This document shows, in pieces, positions 32,989-52,095 of a DNA stretch of 64,000 bases. The translations under genes were made by a program, and so were the position numbers. Source of the stretch: Candidatus Acidiferrales bacterium (GTDB lineage Bacteria > Bacteroidota > Ignavibacteria > Kryptoniales > JAKASW01); NCBI GenBank assembly GCA_035515795.1, contig DATJAY010000039.1, positions 206,964 to 270,963 on the forward strand, given 5' to 3'. Position 1 is the first letter of the stretch. Every line of letters begins with the position of its first letter. The notes beneath the pieces are model-generated. The model saw only the letters and a program-made list of their open reading frames with translations, did not search any database and had not been told where the DNA came from.

Positions 32989-34270
32989 CGAATCCTCCTA
33001 ATCTTATGTGAACTTGTACATTTTCGGAACCCGTTCAAGCCAGGGTTTCGAGTCAGCGGACGCTGCTATGAACAGCCGTCCTCAATCTATGGACAGCACA
33101 GTGAAGGTTCAAGAACACATCGTCCTCGGTACTGGTTCAGTCAGGACTTGAGTGGCTCAGTTAGCGTGATCTGAATAATCCCATGCGAAAATGGAGTCCC
33201 GTTTGGGAGGAGGAATTTTACGGAATTAGTAGTACGGTCGTAGCGATTTTTTGTCGAACGTTGGTTTGTCGTAGCTATTCAAAAAATCGCATATTCTCCG
33301 TACGGGACGATCCGCCTGTGGCGGACCATTTTCGCACGGCGCCCTTTTTCCCGCTCCGACATAATAGTCTTTTTATAGATGCGGGATGGCGCAAGGCGCT
33401 CACTTTTGGTTCGTTTTCTTTTGGGCGAGCAAAAGAAAATGAACAATGGAGAATCAACAAACCTTGTGAGGATTTATAGTACTTTCTCTTGTCTTGACAC
33501 AAGAGAAAGTACGAAAGAGAAAGTCAAGGCTTGCGGAAAAAATGGCTGGAAATTCCCCCTCTGAAGAAACGAATAAACTAGGCGCCTTCGGCGCCGTCGG
33601 ACAGTATTCGTTTCTTAAACCGAAGAAGGGAATTTCCTAATGGCCATTTTTTCCTGATGCCGTACGCTACACTCTTCCATTCCGATTCAAACTGAACCAC
33701 CTAAAGGCAAATTGAGCCAGTACCTCGTCCTCTTTAGGGTTATTCCAAGCGTGGAGTTGGCCCGCCGGACACCACCTCAGTCCGGTGGGGGAGTTGTTTG
33801 GAGAATGAGGGGCGATCTCTGCTGCAGCAATCCCAATGGTTGTACCACGAAGCAGCGGATTGTCGCAGTCAAACAAAAAAACACAGTGTGTGCGATCCCT
33901 TTTCGCGGGACCGCGTGATGCCGAAGCTCACTCGCAAAGACGGGAGGCCGGTAGGGAACCCCTCACTCATTTGTCATTTCGGGGAGTGAAACGACGTGGC
34001 AATCCTATCAACCACAGGATTGTTCACTGAAGGTGAACCTGCTGAAGACATGACTTCTCCCTCTTATCTCTTTGACTTTTCTCCCTGCCAAGCGTTATCA
34101 TTAAGAGTTAAAGAGACAGAAGAAGTCCTTTTTGAGAAAGACAGTCTCACTTGATTGTGATGGTGAAACCAGTTTCAAGTTAGACCTTGACTTTTCCAAA
34201 GAGTGTTTCTACCCAAAAATGAAAACCACAGGCGGGATGACGTCGCCTCGCCTCTAATGGAGTTATATCT
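32989..34270. other. 1.3-kb gene-free stretch dominated by a mobile repeat
   Basis: No credible gene. Bases 33128-33724 are the MITE-like element described separately. Bases 33725-34030 hold decayed short repeats, including GTCATTTCGGGGAGTGAAACG near 33982. The last 240 bases lie upstream of the GH78 gene and contain its ribosome site (GGAGTTATATCT). Short frames inside the element (for example from 33179 and 33438) recur only because the element recurs. Confidence 0.6.
33128..33724. mobile_element. MITE-like element, copy 1 (597 bases, intact ends)
   Basis: Terminal inverted repeats start GGTACTGGTTCAG at the left and end ATTGAGCCAGTACC at the right, imperfect over about 35 bases. The 8 bases TCGTCCTC stand directly outside both ends (33120-33127 and 33725-33732), a target duplication. 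Inside lie three strong hairpins: 33409-33444 (15-base arms around GGCGAG), 33480-33511 (perfect 13-base arms around CTTGAC) and an imperfect one of about 120 bases (33534-33655) with GGCGCCTTCGGCGCC at its tip. There is no transposase, so it must be moved by a protein coded elsewhere. Confidence 0.8.
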
Positions 34271-38589: not shown

Positions 38590-38981
38590 CGTACTGGCTC
38601 ACTTTGCGATTAGGTGGTTCGGTTTGCTTAATTGTTGTCGTGCAGAAAGATTGGAGTTTCCTCGTCTTCATACATGTATTTATACGATTCCTTATCTTTT
38701 GGGCGAGCAAAAGAAAATGAACAATGGAGAATCAACAAACCTTGTGCGGACTTATAGTACTTTCTCTTGTCTTGACACAAGAGAAAGTACGAAAGAGAAA
38801 GTCAAGGCTTACGGAAAAAATGGCTGGAAATTCCCCCTCCGAAGAAACGAATAAACTAGGCGCCTTCGGCGCCGTCGGACAGTATTCGTTTCTTAAACCG
38901 AAGGAGGGAATTTCCTAATCGCCATTTTTTCCTAATGCCGTACCCTACAGTCTTCCATTCCGATTCAAACTGAACCACTAC
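38590..38981. mobile_element. MITE-like element, copy 2 (shorter)
   Basis: Bases 38695-38978 match 33417-33700 of copy 1 over 284 bases with about nine differences and no gaps. The left end (GTACTGGCTCACTTTGCGAT, then TAGGTGGTTCGGTTT) matches the inverse of copy 1's right end. The right end is ACTGAACCACTACC, an inner-type end. The inner left part of copy 1 is missing here. I see no clear target duplication. Confidence 0.7.
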
Positions 38982-40572: not shown

Positions 40573-40982
40573 TTCGTCATTTCGAGCGATCCGCCAAAAA
40601 GACGGCGGACGCGTCCGCCGCAGGTGGAGAGAAATCTTCTGTAGTGCTCATGAAAGTCCTGTTGACAGGTACTCCACACAAGATTCCTCCGCGCACTTAT
40701 CGCGACTTCGTCGTGATAAGTTTGGTCGGAATGACATGCACTTTCTTTCTGCTGAGGCGATCCGGCGGGTAAGTATGGGAGGATCCCCTCATGTACCACC
40801 GAACTCACCCTCTTCCCGCCGAGCGGGATTTCCCCCTCTCTTCTCGGGAAGAGAGGGGGACAAAAGGGGTGAGTTAGAGATTAGGACTTGAAGGAATCCC
40901 GGGCATGAAGCGGATGGCTCCTCGCGATGACAGGAGGCATTCAGGGAAGAACCTCATTGGATTTTACTTAACTAACGAAACT
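40573..40982. other. intergenic region with repeats and a long hairpin
   Basis: No gene. Contains text of the palindromic repeat kind (GTCATTTCGAGCGATCCGCC, 40577-40596), a G/C-rich inverted pair (GGCGGACGCGTCCGCC, 40603-40618) and the long hairpin listed at 40802-40875. Confidence 0.5.
40802..40875. terminator. long compound hairpin
   Basis: Outer arms AACTCACC and GGTGAGTT enclose a small stem (CCCGC/GCGGG) and a perfect 12-base stem CCCCCTCTCTTC/GAAGAGAGGGGG with loop TCGG. A nearly identical compound hairpin lies at 56566-56638. It may work as a terminator upstream of the peptidase gene, but the recurrence points to a dispersed element. Confidence 0.5.
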
Positions 40983-41771
40983 ATGTATCCATTACCCGAA
41001 GCGAAGGCGCGTGAGCTGTTGAGGAAACTCAACGCAAAAAACCCGGAGAGGATCATAGACATCGAAGCGGTCGCCAACGCCGTCGGCCTCATCGTGAAAG
41101 AAACGGACGCGGAGAACAGCGAGGGATACTCGGTGCGGACCGAATCTTCGGGGCTGATAAAAGTGTCGGCGTCTTCAAAGGAGCCGGGACAGAGACGGTT
41201 CACAATCGCCCACGAGATAGGCCACTTCCTCTTAGACAAGAACCCAATTCACCTTTGCAGGATGGAAGACATGGTTGGATACAAATCAAAGAAGGAAGAG
41301 GAGAACGCGGCCAACGCCTTCGCCGCCGAGCTCCTGATGAAGAAGGAGTGGTACGCCGGGTTCGTGAAGGACAAAGCGCCGGGTATCGAGACGATCAAAC
41401 AAGCCGCGGAATATTTCGGGGTCTCGCTCAGCGCAAGTGCGATAAGGTATTCTCAAGCCGGAAACTTTCCCGTCGCGGTGATAATGAGCTGCAAGGGAGC
41501 GCATAACGAAGGAAGGGTGTCATGGTCTGCGATAAGCGAATCATTCCCGTACCGGTATGTCGGGAAGGGGTATAAAGTGAACAAGTTTTCGGAAGCCGAT
41601 AAATTCTTTTCGCAAGGGTCGGGAAAGAAAATGGACCTTAAGCCTCACAGGGTCCTTGCGGATTCATGGTTCTCGGATACCCGCGGCTTCCGTCCGAACC
41701 ACTACTTAGTAGAGCAGTGCCTGCCGATGCCAAACTACGATTGCGTGTTGACGGTGGTGTGGCAGGCGTAG
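40983..41771 (+). CDS. ImmA/IrrE-family metallopeptidase
   Basis: Zinc peptidase of 262 residues. The catalytic motif HEIGH is at residues 77-81 (RFTIAHEIGHFLLDK), and the second acidic helix includes EEENAANAFAAELLMKK. The C-terminal 100 residues fit the sensory part seen in IrrE-like proteins. ImmA/IrrE enzymes cut a partner repressor, usually an XRE protein; none is here, and the neighbours are a sigma-like protein and a small helical one. I use the ATG opening MYPLPEAKARELL; the frame begins 26 codons upstream in repeat sequence. The last eight codons and the stop lie inside a copy of dispersed repeat family 2. Confidence 0.85.
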   Translation: MYPLPEAKARELLRKLNAKNPERIIDIEAVANAVGLIVKETDAENSEGYSVRTESSGLIKVSASSKEPGQRRFTIAHEIGHFLLDKNPIHLCRMEDMVGYKSKKEEENAANAFAAELLMKKEWYAGFVKDKAPGIETIKQAAEYFGVSLSASAIRYSQAGNFPVAVIMSCKGAHNEGRVSWSAISESFPYRYVGKGYKVNKFSEADKFFSQGSGKKMDLKPHRVLADSWFSDTRGFRPNHYLVEQCLPMPNYDCVLTVVWQA

Positions 41772-42559: not shown

Positions 42560-43194
42560 ACGATAATTCAGAGAGACTCTATAGAACCGCATTCAGGCTG
42601 GCCATCTTCACCATAGCCTACAACCTTGCCGAAGGGCTTGTCGCTATTTTCTTCGGCCAGAGGGACGGAAGCCTTACTCTTTTCGGCTTCGGCATCGACA
42701 GCTTCATCGAGGTAATTTCAGGACTTGGTATTGCTCACATGGTATCGCGTATCCGGCGTGACCCGGAGAGCAGCAAAGATAAATTTGAAAAGACCGCCCT
42801 GACAATCACCGGCATTTCATTTTACGTCCTTGTTTTCGGGCTTCTTGCGACGAGTATTTACAAACTGCTTACGGGAGAAAGACCCGGGACAACATTTGCG
42901 GGCGTAGTGCTTTCATTAATTTCAATTGGAGTCATGCTTGCCCTCATGTATTCGAAGCTCACGGTGGGAAAGGCGCTGGACTCAGACGCGATAATCGCGG
43001 ATGCACAGTGTACCAGGGTTTGTGTTTACATGTCCGTAGTCTTGCTTGTTGCGAGCGGCATTTACGAGCTGACGAAAGTCGGTTATGTCGATATCCTCGG
43101 TTCGTTGGCGTTAGCCTACTTCTCATTCAACGAGGGACGTGAATCTCTTGAGAAGGCAAGGAATGATAAATCATGCGCTTGTGAGGATCCCTGA
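42556..43194 (+). CDS. cation-diffusion-facilitator-like membrane protein
   Basis: Inner-membrane protein of 212 residues with six helices. The helix with GSLTLFGFGIDSFIEVISG and the later LDSDAIIADAQCTRVCVYMSV carry paired polar residues in the positions of the CDF metal site (D/E in the second and fifth helices). The usual cytoplasmic C-terminal domain is absent; instead a short tail ends CACEDP. Start codon overlaps the methyltransferase stop. Likely moves a divalent metal; which one cannot be told. Confidence 0.75.
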   Translation: MNDNSERLYRTAFRLAIFTIAYNLAEGLVAIFFGQRDGSLTLFGFGIDSFIEVISGLGIAHMVSRIRRDPESSKDKFEKTALTITGISFYVLVFGLLATSIYKLLTGERPGTTFAGVVLSLISIGVMLALMYSKLTVGKALDSDAIIADAQCTRVCVYMSVVLLVASGIYELTKVGYVDILGSLALAYFSFNEGRESLEKARNDKSCACEDP

Positions 43195-43265
43195 GGAGAG
43201 AGGCCCCTCACTTTTCAATCATCTAAATTCCTACGAGCTGCGAGCCATGATCTATCAGCTAACCG

Positions 43266-43320
43266 CATCCCCGTTGATTCTTCGGTTCATGTCGATTACT
43301 TTTAATCAACTTGGAAAAAG
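43266..43320 (+). repeat. dispersed repeat family 2, copy E (partial)
   Basis: Carries ATCCCCGTTGATTC, then TCATGTCGATTACTTTTAATC and AACTTGGAAAAAG, matching the right half of the family. It lies between the metal transporter and the restriction operon, and ends 28 bases before the ribosome site of the gene at 43361. Confidence 0.6.
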
Positions 43321-43360
43321 AATTGGAGTGGGAAAAATTGCAATTGCGGGGAGGCGTTGT

Positions 43361-43765
43361 ATGCTCCTAAAGCCTTTGCCGACAGAACGCATATATCATT
43401 ACCTTCACACTGATGTAAGTCTAATAAACGATGATACCCTGAAAATCCTTTTTGCCGAGATTGTAGGTCTTCGCGGGGGGACGATTCAAGGGGTTGTCCT
43501 TGATTTTTTGGTCCGATCGCTTCACCCATACATGGGCGACGAAAAGCGAAAGCCGTTCGAGAAGACGGAGTTCCTACTTGAGATATATCTCCCGTCAAAA
43601 ATCGGTGAACTATGGGAGACAGAAATCTATAAGCTGTGCATTGATCTCGCACTGTTTTCAGGACTAAGAAGTGCCGAAGACATTGATAAAATGAGTCTTT
43701 ACGTTTTGCTGAATAGAACAGTTCCTCGCGTGAAGAAAGCCAAGAAGCGGAGGACCCCGTATTAA
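43361..43765 (+). CDS. small protein coupled to the type III modification gene
   Basis: Protein of 134 residues, not recognised. The ATG at 43361 has GGGGAGG six bases upstream; the frame stays open for 74 further codons, but those cover the previous gene's end and a repeat, so I reject them. No signal or membrane helix. It is Leu-rich and helical, ending in a basic tail (RVKKAKKRRTPY). The stop overlaps the mod start (TAATG), so the two are translated together. That position suggests a role in the restriction system, perhaps a regulator or a modification partner. Confidence 0.7.
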   Translation: MLLKPLPTERIYHYLHTDVSLINDDTLKILFAEIVGLRGGTIQGVVLDFLVRSLHPYMGDEKRKPFEKTEFLLEIYLPSKIGELWETEIYKLCIDLALFSGLRSAEDIDKMSLYVLLNRTVPRVKKAKKRRTPY

Positions 43766-45738
43766 TGGACGGTAAATCTCAAAACATCAGGGAGCAGCAG
43801 CTAAGTAAGCTGAAAGAACTTTTCCCGGAAGTTGTTTCGGATGGGAAGGTGGATTGGGAAAAGCTCAAGCTAACCTTGGGCGAAGACACAACAATCGACA
43901 ACGAACGGTACGTTCTCAACTGGGCTGGCAAAAGTGACGCCTTCAGAGCGATCCAGACTCAGACCACCGCAACGCTGAAGCCGCAGCGCGAACAGTCGGT
44001 TGATTTTGACACGACGCAAAATATCTTCATCGAAGGCGAAAACCTTGAAGTGCTGAAAGTGCTACAGAAGTCGTACTATGGGAAGGTGAAGATGATCTAC
44101 ATCGACCCGCCATACAACACGGGCAACGACAGCTTCATTTATCCCGACAAGTTCAGCGAGAGCAAAGATGAATACCTGAAGCGCATCGGCGACAAAGATG
44201 AGGCGGGTTACCTGACGAAGGAAGGATTCTTCAGAAAGAACAGCAAAGAGAACGGGCAGTACCATTCCAACTGGCTATCCATGATGTACCCGCGGCTCTT
44301 CCTCGCGAGGAATCTTCTGCTCGACGACGGTGTGATATTCGTTTCGATTGACGACAACGAGATGCACAACCTGCGGCTAATGATGAATGAGGTTTTTGGA
44401 GAAGAGAATTTTGTGGCCGCGTTTGTCTGGTTTGGAGGGAGGAAAAACGATTCGAAGCAGGTTAGTGTAAGCCATGAATATATTTTGTCTTATGGCAAGT
44501 CGTCAGCGGCTAAAATTTCATCTGGGAATGTATGGAAAGAAAAAAAGGAAGGTATAGATCGGATTTATTCTCAGTATGAGAAATTGAAGAGGAAATATGG
44601 CAAAGATTGGTCTGCTGTCAGCGAAGGTTTACAAGAATGGTATCGCGGCCTTAAGCCATATGATCCTGCAAAAGAACATGAACACTACCACTGGGCGGAT
44701 AAAGAAGGTGTCTATTTTGCGAGTGATATATCCGGCCCAGACGATGGAAGGAAAAATCGACCAAGGTATGAAGTCCTCCACCCAGTGACCAAGAAGCCCG
44801 TTCAAATCCCAGCAAGAGGATGGAGATGGGAATATCCAAGGATGCAAGAAGAGTTAGCCGCTGATCGCGTGCATTTTGGACCCGATGAGTCTTCAGTGCC
44901 AAACATTAAAGTCTATTTGCGTGAGAATGAGTATCAAGCACCCAGTAGCGTATTTTATAGAGATAGGAGAGGGGCAAGTGCTGATCTGAAGGGCATCTTG
45001 CAGGAAAAAGTTTTCGACTTTCCAAAGGACGCGGGAGTAATTAGACGACTCATTTCGCTCGTGACTTACACAGATAGCATCGTCCTCGACTTCTTTGCCG
45101 GCAGTGGCACAACGGCACAAGCTGTCATGGAACTGAACAAGGAAGACGGCGGTAACAGAAAGTTTATCCTGATACAGCTTCCAGAGAAGATTGATGAGGA
45201 GTCGGATGCGTACAAAGCGAACTACAAAACGATCGCGGATATTTGCAGAGTGCGTATCCGAAGGGTGAGTGAGAAGATCAATGAAGAAATCGAAACACAG
45301 CGTGACCTGTTCAAAGACAAATCCTTGGACCTCGGATTCAAAGCCTTCACGCTTGAGCCGTCGACCTTCAAGGTCTGGCGGACAGATACGATTGAGAACG
45401 GCGACGATCTGAAAAAACAGATGGATGCTTTTACTGATCCCGTCAAGACTGGCTCTGACGCCAACGACATGGCGTGGGAGATACTTGTTAAGTCGGGGTA
45501 TGAGTTGACAACGAAGATGGAGAAGCGAACAGTCGGCAATGTCGCGATCTATTCGATTGCCGAAGGCGAGATTGCGCTTGCGCTTGAAAAGATTACCCAA
45601 AAGGCAATAGCTGAGGTCGTCAAAATGAAGCCGAAGAATTTTATTTGCCTCGACCGCCTCTTCGCAGGCAACGATCAGTTAAAGACAAATACCGCGTTGC
45701 AGATGAAGGACGCGGGAGTGGAGTTTAGGACGATATGA
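43765..45738 (+). CDS. mod: type III restriction-modification DNA methyltransferase (Mod)
   Basis: Adenine-N6 methyltransferase and specificity subunit of 657 residues. Motif IV is IYIDPPYNTG (DPPY at 114-117) and motif I is DFFAGSGTTAQAV (FAGSG at 444-448), i.e. the beta order of type III Mod proteins. The 300 residues between them hold the target recognition region. A helical C-terminal part follows. It begins on the stop of the preceding small gene (TAATG). The partner res gene is not adjacent: an ATPase and a PIN-like gene are placed between them. Confidence 0.93.
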   Translation: MDGKSQNIREQQLSKLKELFPEVVSDGKVDWEKLKLTLGEDTTIDNERYVLNWAGKSDAFRAIQTQTTATLKPQREQSVDFDTTQNIFIEGENLEVLKVLQKSYYGKVKMIYIDPPYNTGNDSFIYPDKFSESKDEYLKRIGDKDEAGYLTKEGFFRKNSKENGQYHSNWLSMMYPRLFLARNLLLDDGVIFVSIDDNEMHNLRLMMNEVFGEENFVAAFVWFGGRKNDSKQVSVSHEYILSYGKSSAAKISSGNVWKEKKEGIDRIYSQYEKLKRKYGKDWSAVSEGLQEWYRGLKPYDPAKEHEHYHWADKEGVYFASDISGPDDGRKNRPRYEVLHPVTKKPVQIPARGWRWEYPRMQEELAADRVHFGPDESSVPNIKVYLRENEYQAPSSVFYRDRRGASADLKGILQEKVFDFPKDAGVIRRLISLVTYTDSIVLDFFAGSGTTAQAVMELNKEDGGNRKFILIQLPEKIDEESDAYKANYKTIADICRVRIRRVSEKINEEIETQRDLFKDKSLDLGFKAFTLEPSTFKVWRTDTIENGDDLKKQMDAFTDPVKTGSDANDMAWEILVKSGYELTTKMEKRTVGNVAIYSIAEGEIALALEKITQKAIAEVVKMKPKNFICLDRLFAGNDQLKTNTALQMKDAGVEFRTI

Positions 45739-45822
45739 TATTTGGGTCGGATTGGTCTTGGCATCATGTTCCTATGGCAGTCAACAGAAGACCGATCTCG
45801 TTTTATTTTTAAGGAGTGAGAC

Positions 45823-47154
45823 ATGAAAGAAGATTCTACGATGGAAGATCCAGAGATCCAAGGTATAACCAAGATCTCTGTAACCGGATTTAAATCGCTA
45901 AGTAGCACTTGCGAAATCCCCGTTAGACGGCTCACCGTCTTGGCAGGAGCAAACTGTTCAGGAAAGTCCAGCATTATGCAACCCATGCTCATGATGAAAC
46001 AGACCCTTGAGTCTCCATATGACCCGGGACCGCTTTTGCTCAATGGTCCTAACGTTAGGTTCACGTCGGCTGGCCAGTTCTTTAGCAACATGGGCGGAAA
46101 CGAATACGCCAAGGAAATGGTGGTTGCTATCGAGACAGATGGCAGTTACTACATAAAGTCAATATTTTCAAAAGGCACTTCAGGCCCCCAACTTGCCAAG
46201 ATGGAATACGGTGGAGATGGCAAGCTATTTGAGTTCAAGAATGGTATGATCGTTGATAGTGCCTCTTACGTAATTCCCGCCCAATTGAAGGAACTTGCAG
46301 AGGCGTTTTCCAAGGAAAGGAAAACGACTCTTTCATGGCAAGTCCAACGCGACCGCTGTTTTTTTGCCCTTGCCCTGACGGAAAATATCGAGAAGACGGT
46401 GAGGACTGTTTTAAGTGCTGCCCCGCTATCTCCAAGCTTCGAACTCCAAGCACGGCTGCGAGATATCATCCATGTTCCTGGATTGCGCGGAAATCCTGAG
46501 AGAACCTATCCTGTAACTGCAATAGGCGGGGAATTCCCAGGGAGATTTCAGGACTACGTGGCGAGCATCATAAATATGTGGCAATCAGAGGACAACAAGA
46601 GACTCCAACAACTCTTTAATGACCTTCAGGTCTTGGGTTTGACTTGGAAAATTGAAGCTCACCCCTTAGACGATGTACAAGTGGAGTTGAGGGTAGGTCG
46701 GCTCGTCACAGCCAGAAGAGGCGGCGCTCAGGATCTGGTGAGTATTGCGGACGTAGGCTTCGGGGTCTCACAAACAATTCCGGTTTTGGTGGCCCTTCTC
46801 GCAGCGCGAAAGAACCAACTTGTCTACATCGAAGAGCCTGAGATTCATCTTCATCCCAATGCGCAAGCGGCGTTGGCTGAGATATTTTTGAGGGCGGCAA
46901 GTCGGGGAGTGCGCGTTGTTGTAGAAACCCACAGCAGTCTCTTCCTTCGCAAGCTTCAAGCCCTTGTAGCTGAGCGTCCCGAATACAGAAGACTAGTGGC
47001 TCTCCACTGGTTTGACAGAAACAAGGACGGATACACCAAGGTGACTAGTGCAGAGCTCGACCAGACAGGAGCATTCGGCGAATGGCCATCCGACTTCGAC
47101 GAAGTTTCTCTTCGAGTGGAGAAGGAGTATATCAACGCAGGTGTTCGTAAGTAA
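45823..47154 (+). CDS. AAA ATPase of the SMC/OLD-like (AAA15/AAA21) kind
   Basis: Predicted ATPase of 443 residues. Walker A is GANCSGKSS (42-50), the signature-like region lies around GFGVSQTIPVL, Walker B is LVYIEEPEIHLHP (Glu pair at 337-338), and the H-loop His is in ETHSSLFLRKL (about 370). A long insertion sits between the Walker motifs, as in defence ATPases such as RloA, PARIS AriA, Septu PtuA and OLD. There is no nuclease domain of its own; the PIN-like protein follows after 10 bases. Ribosome site AAGGAG seven bases before ATG. Likely the sensor or motor of a two-gene system. Confidence 0.85.
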   Translation: MKEDSTMEDPEIQGITKISVTGFKSLSSTCEIPVRRLTVLAGANCSGKSSIMQPMLMMKQTLESPYDPGPLLLNGPNVRFTSAGQFFSNMGGNEYAKEMVVAIETDGSYYIKSIFSKGTSGPQLAKMEYGGDGKLFEFKNGMIVDSASYVIPAQLKELAEAFSKERKTTLSWQVQRDRCFFALALTENIEKTVRTVLSAAPLSPSFELQARLRDIIHVPGLRGNPERTYPVTAIGGEFPGRFQDYVASIINMWQSEDNKRLQQLFNDLQVLGLTWKIEAHPLDDVQVELRVGRLVTARRGGAQDLVSIADVGFGVSQTIPVLVALLAARKNQLVYIEEPEIHLHPNAQAALAEIFLRAASRGVRVVVETHSSLFLRKLQALVAERPEYRRLVALHWFDRNKDGYTKVTSAELDQTGAFGEWPSDFDEVSLRVEKEYINAGVRK

Positions 47155-47164
47155 CTTTCCCCGG

Positions 47165-47695
47165 ATGAGTAAGCCTTTCAAGAAGCAACTGGTTATAGAT
47201 GCGTCGATCGCGCGCGCAGCGGGTTTTAAGTCCGTGAGGGGTGTGACCTGTATTGAGTTCATGGAGCGTGTCAGAGATATATGTAATCAACTTGTAATGA
47301 CAGAGAAGATACATGAAGAATGGAACCGCAATGCCTCAAAGTATGCTTTTCAGTGGGCCGCAAGTATGAAATCATTAGGCAAACTCCGCGATCTTGAAGC
47401 TGGCGACCCAACCACTTTGCTAAAAAAGATAGAATCACTCGAAATTGGAGATGCCCAGAAGCGGGCGATGCTCAAAGACGTATGCCTTATTGTGGCCGCA
47501 AAATCAAGTGAATGTCGAGTCGTGTCTCTTGATGAAGAAGCGCGAGAGTTATACCGGAAATTCGGAGACCCTCTCCAAGAATTGAATGGTGTCTTGTGGA
47601 TAAATCCTGAGAAGCAAGATGACGATGCCATGGGATGGCTGGAGAGGGGTACACCAAGTGAAGATGCCCTCCTTCTTCGACAGAAACAGGCATAA
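47165..47695 (+). CDS. PIN-like nuclease partner of the ATPase
   Basis: Protein of 176 residues with the fold pattern of PIN nucleases. D12 in LVIDASIARAAG stands at the end of the first strand; E51/E52 are in IHEEWNRN; D105 is in MLKDVCLIVAA; D123 is in VVSLDEEARELY. These four acidic positions fit a two-metal RNase site. Overall similarity to known PIN families is low. I start at the ATG 10 bases after the ATPase stop (GGATG context). The stop is 2 bases before res. Such nucleases usually cut RNA, so an abortive-infection role is plausible. Confidence 0.65.
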   Translation: MSKPFKKQLVIDASIARAAGFKSVRGVTCIEFMERVRDICNQLVMTEKIHEEWNRNASKYAFQWAASMKSLGKLRDLEAGDPTTLLKKIESLEIGDAQKRAMLKDVCLIVAAKSSECRVVSLDEEARELYRKFGDPLQELNGVLWINPEKQDDDAMGWLERGTPSEDALLLRQKQA

Positions 47696-47697
47696 CG

Positions 47698-50370
47698 ATG
47701 AAACTCCAATTCGACTCACATCAAGACTTCCAGATACAGGCTATCCAATCCGTAGTGGACATTTTTGAAGGACAGCCGCTTAACACTGGCGACTATGAAT
47801 TCTCGCTTCAGCAGGGAGACACAAGTCTTGCATTCACAGAAAACGGTGTCGGGAATGCAATCAGATTGACGGAGCAGGAAATACTTAAGAATGTCCACTC
47901 TATTCAGAAACGAAATGGAATAGAAGAATCCTCCGAATTGAAAGGCCTCAACTTCTCAGTCGAGATGGAAACTGGTACAGGGAAGACATATGTTTATCTT
48001 CGCACCATATACGAGCTCAACAAAACTTACGGCTTCAAGAAATTCATTATTGTCGTGCCAAGCATTGCGATTCGCGAAGGAGTTCTCAAGAATCTCCAGA
48101 TAACATACGGCCACTTTCAAAGCCTTTACAACCGCGCCCCTTTGACATACACCGTCTATGGCTCGAAGAATGTCTCAGCTCTGCGTGGCTTTGCTTTAAG
48201 TAACACGATCCAGGTGCTCGTCATCAATATTGACTCCTTTGCTAAGGATGAGAATATCATCAACAAGCCGAACGACAAGCTCACGGGAAAGCGGCCGATA
48301 GAATTCATTCAATACACAAATCCGATTGTCATCGTGGATGAGCCGCAGAACATGGAAACCGATCTTCGGAAGGAGGCAATTGCTAACCTAAAGCCATCAT
48401 GCACTCTCCGATATTCCGCAACGCATCGGGATGTTTATAATCTTGTCTATAAACTGAGTCCTGTCAAAGCTTATGACCTTGGATTGGTAAAGCAGATCGA
48501 AGTCGATTCGGTAGTCAGCGAGGACAGTTTCAACCAGGCATTTGTGAAGCTTGAAGGGATAAAGACGCAGAAGAAAAGACCTCCGAGAGCAAAGCTCTCA
48601 TTTGATTATGAAGGCGCAGAATCGGTCTTGAGGAAGTCCGCCTATCTCGATAATGGCGATAACCTGTATGACCTATCGAACAAAAGAGAGATGTACCGTG
48701 ATGGGTATATAGTAAACTCAATAGATGCCGATGAGGGCTTTGTCGAATTTTCGGGAGGGTTAAGAATAAGTCTTGGAGAGACTACGGGCGGCCTTCGGGA
48801 CGACATAATGAAAGTCCAGATAAGAAAGACGGTCGAGGAACATTTCCGAAAGGAAGCAGTCCTGAGGCCAAAAGGCATCAAGGTTTTATCTCTCCTGTTC
48901 ATAGACAAAGTAAATAACTACCGCCTCTATGAAGATGGCAAGAAGGGAGACGGAAAGTTCGCTGTCTGGTTTGAAGAAATCTTCAAAGAGTACGCAGGCA
49001 AACCTGAGTTTAGAGGAGTGATACCATTCGGCGCTGCTCAGGTCCACAACGGCTACTTTGCCCAGGACAAGAAAGGCTTGATGAAAGATTCCCGCGAGGG
49101 GAAAACTTCTGAAACCGATACCGAGGCTTACGAACTCATCATGAAAGACAAGGAGAAGCTCCTTGAAATTAATGAGCCTCTCCGGTTTATCTTCAGCCAT
49201 TCAGCCTTGCGCGAAGGCTGGGACAATCCCAATGTCTTCCAGCTTTGCACACTGAACGAGACCACCTCCGAGCTAAAGAAGCGGCAGGAGATTGGACGGG
49301 GGCTCAGGCTTGCTGTCAACTCCGACGGAAACAGGGTGTTTGAGAAGGCGGTAAACAGATTGACCGTAATCGCGAATGAGAGCTACGAGCAATTTGCAAA
49401 AAAGCTCCAGAAAGAAATCGAAGACGAGACGGGAGAGAAGTTCGAAGGAAGGATAAAGAACAAGAATGAAAAGAAGAAAGTCACTCTGCGGAAAGGGTAC
49501 GACGCAGATCCGAAATTCATTGAGCTTTGGGAACGCATAAGACAGAAGACAACGTACCGCGTCGAATACCTAACCGACGAACTGACTCGCAAGGCTGCGA
49601 AGCGGGTTAGCAAGATGTGTGAGATTCTTGCGCCTCGAATCGTTGCCCAGCGAACCAAGCTTGTCATGGAAAAATCAGGCGTCACTGGTGAAGGGAAGTC
49701 GATTGAGTTTCATGCTCCGGAATACGGCACAGTGGCAATCCCCGATATTGTCGGCTACATCGAGCAAAGAACGCATCTTACGCGTTCTACCATAATGGAA
49801 ATCCTACGCCAATCGGGAAGGCTCCTTGATTGCCTGAAGAATCCGCAGTTGTTTCTTGAAAGTACAGTGCACGAGATAAAGACTGAACTGGAAGCAACTA
49901 TGGTCGATGGTGTCAAATACCAAAAGATAGAGAACGAGTATTACGAGATGCACCAGTTCCAGACTGACGAGATAGAAGAGTATCTATCAAATCTTTACGG
50001 TGTCAAGAACAAAGAGAAGACTATCTTCGACAACATAGAGATAGATTCGCTGTCGGAGACAGAGCGCAAATTTGCCAACGCTTGTGATACCAGCGATGAC
50101 GTAGAGTTTTTCTTGAAGCTCCCGCGGTGGTTTGAGATAGAAACTCCGGTTGGGAAATACAGACCCGATTGGGCTTTGATGCTGAAGAAAGAAAAGCGGC
50201 TTTACTTCGTGGCGGAAACGAAATCGACCCTCGATAAATCCAAGCGCCTCGAAAGCGAGAACCAGAAGATCGAATGCGGGAAGAAGCACTTTGCAGAGCT
50301 CAAGGAAGTTTATTTCACAGAGGCGACAAAGCTTGAAGATGTGGAAAGGGAAGCAAGCCAAATAAAGTGA
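47698..50370 (+). CDS. res: type III restriction enzyme subunit (Res)
   Basis: ATP-driven restriction subunit of 890 residues. The SF2 helicase motifs are present: Walker A METGTGKT (90-97), DEPQ (214-217), SATHRD (about 240-245), and the HSALREGWDNPNVFQ and RQEIGRGLRLAV segments of motifs V and VI. The C-terminal nuclease has PD (823-824) and ETK (840-842) in YRPDWALML and YFVAETKST. It should cut DNA with unmethylated sites together with Mod. It starts 2 bases after the PIN-like gene. Confidence 0.95.
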   Translation: MKLQFDSHQDFQIQAIQSVVDIFEGQPLNTGDYEFSLQQGDTSLAFTENGVGNAIRLTEQEILKNVHSIQKRNGIEESSELKGLNFSVEMETGTGKTYVYLRTIYELNKTYGFKKFIIVVPSIAIREGVLKNLQITYGHFQSLYNRAPLTYTVYGSKNVSALRGFALSNTIQVLVINIDSFAKDENIINKPNDKLTGKRPIEFIQYTNPIVIVDEPQNMETDLRKEAIANLKPSCTLRYSATHRDVYNLVYKLSPVKAYDLGLVKQIEVDSVVSEDSFNQAFVKLEGIKTQKKRPPRAKLSFDYEGAESVLRKSAYLDNGDNLYDLSNKREMYRDGYIVNSIDADEGFVEFSGGLRISLGETTGGLRDDIMKVQIRKTVEEHFRKEAVLRPKGIKVLSLLFIDKVNNYRLYEDGKKGDGKFAVWFEEIFKEYAGKPEFRGVIPFGAAQVHNGYFAQDKKGLMKDSREGKTSETDTEAYELIMKDKEKLLEINEPLRFIFSHSALREGWDNPNVFQLCTLNETTSELKKRQEIGRGLRLAVNSDGNRVFEKAVNRLTVIANESYEQFAKKLQKEIEDETGEKFEGRIKNKNEKKKVTLRKGYDADPKFIELWERIRQKTTYRVEYLTDELTRKAAKRVSKMCEILAPRIVAQRTKLVMEKSGVTGEGKSIEFHAPEYGTVAIPDIVGYIEQRTHLTRSTIMEILRQSGRLLDCLKNPQLFLESTVHEIKTELEATMVDGVKYQKIENEYYEMHQFQTDEIEEYLSNLYGVKNKEKTIFDNIEIDSLSETERKFANACDTSDDVEFFLKLPRWFEIETPVGKYRPDWALMLKKEKRLYFVAETKSTLDKSKRLESENQKIECGKKHFAELKEVYFTEATKLEDVEREASQIK

Positions 50371-50441: not shown

Positions 50442-50744
50442 ATGGCTTTTTCTGAAGAAGAAATTCAAAAGGTATGGAACGATGGTAAAGCCGTCGCAGG
50501 CTATGACCCGGACGTATGGAGAAAAGACCAGTGCGGTGCGTGGATTCATCGCATGCAATACGGAAACAGAAAATCCGATTACGGATGGGAGATTGACCAT
50601 ATATCCCCGGGAGGCCCAGATACGAAAGACAATCTTAGACCCTTACAATGGCAGAACAATTTAAGCAAAAGTGACAGTAGACTAGGATGCAAGGTAACGT
50701 CTTCGGGAAAGAAAAATGTTGAGATTAAGGAATCTGAAGATTAA
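50442..50744 (+). CDS. HNH endonuclease domain protein
   Basis: Small protein of 100 residues with one HNH domain: WEIDHISPGGPDTKDNLRPL, then QWQNNLSKSD, the metal-binding His, Asn and second His/Asn positions. Ribosome site AGGAGG. It lies 71 bases after res. HNH proteins of this size occur singly beside many restriction and defence genes; it could be a nicking component or an independent gene. No DNA-recognition domain is visible. Confidence 0.8.
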   Translation: MAFSEEEIQKVWNDGKAVAGYDPDVWRKDQCGAWIHRMQYGNRKSDYGWEIDHISPGGPDTKDNLRPLQWQNNLSKSDSRLGCKVTSSGKKNVEIKESED

Positions 50745-50829: not shown

Positions 50830-52095
50830 ATGTTGAAAGATCAATTCGAGCAATTCCTTACTATCTATGATGCCGATGCGAAGGATGCGATCTGGGCTGA
50901 ACAGAGTCGGACCTTTCGTCGGTTTTGGAATGATAAAATTGTAAATGGTTCACCCGATTCACTTACGGATGACAACATCGACCCTATTGTAAGGATACTT
51001 GATCGACATGGGAAAGGGAACAATAGCGAATCCGAAGCCATCGCGAAAGCCATGGTTGCACAGGGGGCATGGCGAAGAATGTTTCACGAGTTATGCTCAA
51101 AGAAAGATTTGTCAAAGCTCATAACTCAGATATTTGAAACGGCCGATACAGGAGAGAGAGCCGCTAACGTTGATTCACTTTATGAGATGAATAAAGGCAG
51201 GAAGAATAATCTAACTGGGCCGAGCGGGAACGTGATCAACGCTTTCCTTGCGGCGTACGACCCGATGAGCAATATCAGCATAATCTCTATGAAAGACAGA
51301 AGGCTCATTATTGAACACTTTGGATTTCCAATGACATTTGATTATGACAATGCCACTTCAGGTGTCAGGTTCGCAAACACGAACGAAATAATCCTCCGGG
51401 GATTTAGGTCTGAAGGTGTGGAAGGGTCCGCTCGAACGATTTCGGAATTCTGTTATCGCTCGCCGGCAAAGGCTCTCTGGAGAGGTACACATACTGTTGA
51501 GATCGGAAAGAAACCTGTGGAGGTGAGTATACCGCGCGACGATGATGACGATACCTCCTATGATGCCGAAGAGGAAGGACCTAGGGAGTCAATTGCAATG
51601 CAGGCAATCGTAGCGGAAATCGGAGCAAAAATGGGAATGCAGATTTGGATTCCCAAAGGAGATCGATCAAGAATTCTCAGGGTCTGGCATCCTACAGGAG
51701 AAGAACTGCTTGACAGACTGCCATTGAACTATGACGAAACAGCCATGAAGACAATCGAGAACATAGATGTGCTCTGGCTAAACCGACGAGCAATTGTTAG
51801 AGCCTTCGAGGTCGAGCATACAACTTCCATCTATTCGGGATTGTTACGAATGGCCGATCTTCTTGCTTTGCTACCCAATATTGATATCAAATTGCACATT
51901 GTCGCGCCACCTTCAAGAAGCGAGAAAGTATTTGAAGAAATCAAACGTCCAGTGTTTTCCTTGTTGGAAGGCGGAGCACTTTCTGAAAAGTGTACATATA
52001 TTTCCTACGACAGACTTCGTGAACTGTATAACGATAAGCAATTGGAATTCCTTAAGTCGGACGTGCTCGAAAAATATTGTGAACAAGCTGAATGA
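50830..52095 (+). CDS. putative nuclease-like protein at the end of the island
   Basis: Protein of 421 residues, not named. The C-terminal part contains IDVLWLNRRAIVRAFEVEHT, then TSIYSGLLRMADLLAL, a pattern of Asp, Glu-x-Glu and a following helix that fits a PD-(D/E)XK nuclease fold. The N-terminal 200 residues are helical with no known motif, and an acidic run (DDDDDTSYDAEEE) divides the halves. Ribosome site AGGAGT. It lies 85 bases after the HNH gene and is followed by a hairpin at 52165. It may be a separate restriction-type nuclease. Confidence 0.55.
   Translation: MLKDQFEQFLTIYDADAKDAIWAEQSRTFRRFWNDKIVNGSPDSLTDDNIDPIVRILDRHGKGNNSESEAIAKAMVAQGAWRRMFHELCSKKDLSKLITQIFETADTGERAANVDSLYEMNKGRKNNLTGPSGNVINAFLAAYDPMSNISIISMKDRRLIIEHFGFPMTFDYDNATSGVRFANTNEIILRGFRSEGVEGSARTISEFCYRSPAKALWRGTHTVEIGKKPVEVSIPRDDDDDTSYDAEEEGPRESIAMQAIVAEIGAKMGMQIWIPKGDRSRILRVWHPTGEELLDRLPLNYDETAMKTIENIDVLWLNRRAIVRAFEVEHTTSIYSGLLRMADLLALLPNIDIKLHIVAPPSRSEKVFEEIKRPVFSLLEGGALSEKCTYISYDRLRELYNDKQLEFLKSDVLEKYCEQAE

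Follow-up and report, generated by a model that had tools for sequence, protein, structure and literature searches.

The window, the whole stretch of 64,000 nucleotides analysed here, contains a type III restriction operon in which two further genes lie between those for the modification and restriction subunits, all on the forward strand. The first subunit gene, mod (43765..45738), encodes a type III N6/N4 DNA methyltransferase of 657 aa (Pfam N6_N4_Mtase, 1.6e-35; PADLOC MTase_III, E 7.5e-200), and res (47698..50370) encodes a type III restriction helicase-nuclease of 890 aa (Pfam ResIII and RE_endonuc; PADLOC REase_III, E 4.3e-284). By the Pfam and PADLOC profiles, both are genuine type III subunits. 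A gap of 84 bp after mod (45739..45822, forward strand) holds a good ribosome-binding site, TTTTTAAGGAGTGAGACATG, for a gene encoding a 443-aa AAA_15/AAA_21 ATPase of the OLD/ABC type that resembles NsnB (45823..47154; Pfam AAA_15 2e-24, AAA_21 6.5e-24). Ten bases beyond its stop codon begins the gene for a 176-aa PIN-fold protein (47165..47695), recognized by its AlphaFold2 model, Foldseek matches and an invariant tetrad of acidic residues, D12, E52, D105 and D123; only 2 bases then separate it from the res ATG at 47698. The earlier note on this DNA had given these positions, the strand, both gaps and the Walker motifs of the ATPase, and all were right on re-reading of the sequence.

A mechanical listing of open reading frames begins the PIN frame earlier, at a GTG at 47048, and comparison with homologues favours the ATG at 47165 as the probable start. 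No consensus forward promoter was found in the mod-res interval, and the pair is therefore probably transcribed with the operon. The two are not a chance pair of reading frames, as homologous pairs occur in 8 other loci, both proteins are conserved, and the four acidic residues are invariant in 8 homologues. Just upstream of mod lies an ORF of up to 208 aa without a family match (43139-43765), whose stop shares one base with the mod start and which may be the operon's first gene. An IrrE-type peptidase gene (capP-like; 40905-41771) lies on the upstream side of the locus, and downstream of res are genes for a small HNH-like protein (50442-50744) and a protein of 421 aa (50830-52095) that matches a type II restriction enzyme weakly (PADLOC 1e-11). 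With these genes around the type III operon, the region looks like a defence island.

An OLD/ABC-type ATPase and its PIN-fold partner

The ATPase carries the Walker A motif GANCSGKSS and the Walker B motif LVYIEEPEIHLHP, and its C-terminus is DUF3696-like, although the Pfam match is below threshold. Among PADLOC profiles it scores highest on NsnB of Menshen (172.8 bits), followed by HEC-03B (124.1), PDC-M55A (117) and AriA of PARIS (94). The Walker A core, an E-PE-HLHP motif at Walker B and an E-HS switch are kept in all 14 aligned ATPase relatives, and identity to the ATPases of the paired homologues is 38-46%. In a tree of these 14 sequences, nine close ones form a single group with 99/97 support, made up of eight paired ATPases, with a near copy left out, and one from a locus (L018) where the DNA covered includes the ATPase but not the partner position. 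Judged by its sequence, the ATPase is a member of the large OLD/ABC-type group of defence-system ATPases, and we presume that it acts as a sensor or regulator of the PIN protein.

The 176-aa protein gave no meaningful match in sequence searches of Pfam, NCBIfam, PADLOC, PHROGs and the PDB; weak matches to Frigida, LARP1 and JetB were regarded as chance. Likewise, no PIN family of Pfam matched any of the 8 members of the small-protein family. Many divergent PIN proteins are missed by curated PIN profiles, and we therefore did not count this failure as excluding a PIN domain. An alignment of 8 homologues, taken from loci that scans by protein and by DNA pattern had located, has 15 invariant positions, at which the only acidic residues are D12, E52, D105 and D123, matching a PIN active site in their order and context. 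A ninth homologue has all four as well. An AlphaFold2 model built on the 8 homologue rows reached a pLDDT of 85.8 and a pTM of 0.83, and its top Foldseek matches among solved structures were VapC (7vwo, E 2.1e-4), the HARP RNase P (7og5, E 1.2e-3), VapBC2 and Nob1; among viral models, Foldseek found nothing at E <= 0.001. The matches to VapC, HARP RNase P and Nob1 identify the protein as a PIN domain, and TM-scores of about 0.5 (0.4-0.6) mark it as a divergent one. The modelled fold and the invariant tetrad thus bear out both the PIN-like nature and the four acidic site positions that the earlier note had read from a single sequence. The VapC, HARP RNase P, VapBC2 and Nob1 families cut RNA, and on the basis of the model we presume that the 176-aa protein is an RNase effector.

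The two proteins recur together: the PIN gene directly follows the ATPase gene in all nine loci readable downstream (the window, L001, L010, L015, L026, L019, L020, L022 and L027), a thin sample that includes two near-identical copies, L015 and L026. The ATPase and PIN sequences diverge in step (Mantel r 0.90, p 0.0003), a strong correlation that would also arise from linked inheritance by itself. One pair (L001), in Propionivibrio dicarboxylicus, belongs to an integrative element that has integrase and excisionase-like genes to one side and a recombinase gene to the opposite side; another (L010) adjoins uppP in a different genome from the phylum of the window. The viral contigs that carry the pair are prophages, with terminase, portal and capsid-protease genes among its neighbours and a Bacillota origin judged by gene content. 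In most of these prophage copies the pair is flanked by a small XerC-like recombinase gene and HNH/terminase genes, an interval that is a spot for cargo. A tblastn search with the PIN protein found no homologues in plasmids and phages.

When the DNA around each of the 8 other pairs was examined, no type III mod or res was found beside any of them. Thus, only the window copy, one of nine, sits inside a type III operon, which indicates that the pair is an autonomous module independent of restriction. Separately, the prophage P2-EC5 carries a related ATPase (ORF555) with a different partner of 333 aa that has no family assignment (ORF333; L013:243-2913).

Relation to catalogued systems

The earlier note could assign the pair to no named system. 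This stands insofar as none matches both proteins, but a catalogued candidate of like layout exists, HEC-03, and the pair lies outside it. HEC-03, one of the embedded candidates of PADLOC, consists of two genes, a DUF3696-type AAA_21 ATPase (HEC-03B) and then a PIN-like partner of ~175 aa (HEC-03A) with a PIN-like N-terminus (VIDTNV), and is found on plasmids. However, the window ATPase reaches 124 bits on HEC-03B, below its own NsnB score, whereas a true HEC-03B reaches 445 bits, and in the tree it belongs to a separate group (99/97). None of the 8 PIN members matched the HEC-03A profile at E<=1, and a comparison of the PIN family with that profile was weak, although in register (P 0.036). 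With both proteins failing, identity with HEC-03 was rejected. In three HEC-03 plasmids (from Aeromonas, Rhodococcus and Azotobacter), a gene of the RNA ligase family comes directly after the ATPase and PIN-like genes (L003:5925-6623, L004:5961-6560 and L006:5924-6616). A further HEC-03 locus, L005, has an HNH gene in this position. No RNA ligase gene was seen beside the present pair.

Menshen (NsnA-NsnB-NsnC) supplies the best PADLOC profile for the window ATPase, NsnB, but a HEC-03 ATPase scores higher still on this profile (199 against 172.8 bits), and these scores were read without a curated cut-off. Menshen identity was rejected on gene content: the neighbours in the window are mod, the PIN gene and res, with neither an NsnA-like DUF262 protein nor NsnC, and the NsnC of an annotated Menshen locus (L012) does not have the PIN start motif. 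The Menshen ATPases, like those of HEC-03, fall outside the nine-member tree group (99/97). PARIS is similar in that an ABC/OLD-type ATPase, AriA, controls a small nuclease, AriB, but AriB is a Toprim nuclease that cuts tRNA (PMC12409363), whereas the effector in the window is a PIN protein. The AriA profiles also score lower on the window ATPase, at 94 bits, and the AriB profile of PADLOC gave no match at the locus. Septu and the retron PtuA-PtuB systems likewise pair an ATPase with a nuclease, but theirs is an HNH protein, and the PtuA profile match is very weak.

PIN RNases are already known to be needed for phage protection in DS-3 and DS-5 of DefensePredictor (PMC13092281). DS-3 consists of one protein, DS-5 of PIN together with a DUF5830/AcrIF4-like protein; as described, neither has an ATPase partner. 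A literature search found no paper combining DUF3696 with PIN. The window pair is thus a family separate from HEC-03 and Menshen but of the same broad kind, and by analogy it may work much as PARIS and HEC-03 do.

The mod-res junction as a cargo slot

G007, which belongs to the same genus as the window genome, encodes a res 87% identical and a mod 62% identical to those of the window. The DNA alignment between the two ends exactly at the mod stop (45738) and restarts exactly at the res start (47698), and within the stretch compared there is no synteny outside mod and res. The slot in G007 holds other genes. One encodes an ATPase of 874 aa (L049:1931-4555) that is related to PADLOC Ppl and has a PHP-like start (HLHTH) and an AAA_21 C-terminus; it is paired with one for a SLFN_AlbA_2 protein.

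Related systems were sampled more widely, within the limit of res proteins related to that of the window. The counts concern the gene adjoining res, which is not always the whole slot, and in several loci of both samples mod lies beyond the stretch. In the phylum, a gene other than mod directly precedes res in 17 of the 17 other loci with readable upstream DNA. These genes include HEC-01 (an ATPase with DUF4276), SoFic, DUF1016/YhcG (PDC-S02), Bro-N (PDC-S13), PDC-M59A with Fic, DUF488 with PDC-M19B, AlbA_2 with ParA, and a transposase-like gene; RhuM and Fic genes occupy the slot in other relatives. In the class of Propionivibrio, res is preceded by a non-mod gene in 13 and directly by mod in 5 of 18 loci (readable upstream DNA, reversed gene order left out). 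One genome of this class (L064) has a gene for a 314-aa protein, not assigned to a family, between mod and res, upstream of res. Taken over all the junctions viewed (45739-47697 in the window; L049-L052, L054, L055, L035-L048 and L057-L076), the genes are diverse and on the same strand, and most match catalogued defence candidates.

The mod-res junction of related type III systems is therefore a general cargo slot, and between the two same-genus genomes the exchange of modules respects the mod stop and the start of res exactly. Homologues of the window pair lie between mod and res in the window alone (1/9 loci). Cargo genes in prophages and in restriction-modification loci are not all defence genes. 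The rlo genes, DarTG2 and the 'guilt by embedding' candidates of PADLOC are likewise cargo between the subunit genes of restriction operons; DarTG2, for example, sits between hsdS and hsdR (PMC12255303). In the window, by contrast, a type III operon is the host and the cargo lies at the mod-res junction. The nesting of defence genes within other such loci has been proposed before (Payne et al. 2024, as cited in PMC12255303 and PMC12988326), and the contents of that work and the candidates of Millman et al. 2022 are given here as they appear in PADLOC profiles and citing papers. No description of the mod-res slot was found in the literature searched.

Proposed mechanism and competing explanations

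We consider it probable that the two genes make up a conflict module that is autonomous and moves horizontally, and in which a phage-triggered ATPase controls a PIN RNase and brings about abortive infection. This reading combines computed elements (the conserved pair, the PIN fold and tetrad, parallel divergence, carriage on prophages and mobile elements, and the cargo slot) with a defence function, an RNase activity, a trigger, a target and an abortive outcome that we infer. The OLD/ABC-type ATPase would sense infection and would keep the PIN RNase inactive, or activate it; upon a phage trigger, the ATPase would free or switch on the PIN protein. The freed protein would then cut RNA (judging from VapC, PARIS and Septu, most likely tRNA), so that translation would stop and the infected cell would release no phage. 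The RNA ligase genes of the three HEC-03 plasmid loci would suit RNA damage, and its repair, in such systems. In the genome of the window, the module would ride as mod-res cargo, probably sharing transcription with the operon.

Some of the same evidence could be read as a toxin-antitoxin addiction module, with a VapC-like PIN toxin and the ATPase as antitoxin, that stabilizes a prophage or the restriction operon without any sensing of phage. The PIN fold is indeed closest to VapC, the layout has two genes, mobile elements carry it, and toxin-type genes (Fic, RelE/BrnT-like) are present in mod-res slots. The ATPase-first order and a 443-aa AAA_21 ATPase with Walker motifs and a His switch differ from VapB antitoxins, however, and the nearest PADLOC ATPases (NsnB, HEC-03B and AriA) come from defence systems or candidates. 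We regard pure addiction as unlikely, although toxin-antitoxin and defence roles are compatible rather than exclusive. A different alternative concerns the substrate: like flap-type PIN relatives, the small protein might cleave DNA, and under the control of the ATPase it would cut phage DNA in a non-abortive defence. The PIN superfamily does include DNA nucleases, and OLD/ABC ATPases frequently act on DNA. Yet the closest solved folds are the RNA-cutting proteins VapC, HARP and Nob1, and an RNA ligase gene is present in related HEC-03 loci, making DNA cutting distinctly improbable here.

The position between mod and res, with gaps of 10 and 2 bases, one strand and no consensus internal promoter, might instead indicate a working part of type III restriction that, for example, tunes Res or acts on the products of failed restriction. 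But 8 of the 9 homologous pairs have neither mod nor res alongside, the slot of relatives contains unrelated genes or none, and the same-genus system has different cargo. With 8/9 pairs located elsewhere, we rejected a functional tie to type III restriction, which appears very improbable. The earlier note had suggested that the pair may fire as a backup when restriction fails; with the type III link found in only 1/9 loci, and so not conserved, such a role does not characterize the pair.

On our preferred reading of an autonomous, phage-triggered module, the two genes are most likely an anti-virus module, complete in itself and not yet described, that occupies a position filled in relatives by other defence genes. 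More broadly, we lean towards an uncatalogued two-gene anti-phage family, an NsnB-like ATPase with a divergent PIN RNase, that is autonomous on prophages and other elements, together with a general mod-res cargo slot that swaps defence modules. A predicted ATPase-controlled PIN RNase would extend the list of defence systems that pair an ATPase with an effector, and its own effector is too divergent for present profiles to detect. Type III restriction operons would, as type I operons do, offer a swap site for defence cargo, and since the known cargo includes catalogued candidates as well as unassigned genes, the mod-res slot is a place to seek new systems. Elsewhere in the window, two stretches of ~190 bp each (33474-33661 and 38751-38939) match one and the same stretch of G007 (L056:88-283) at 74-76%, and are thus likely copies of a dispersed repeat.
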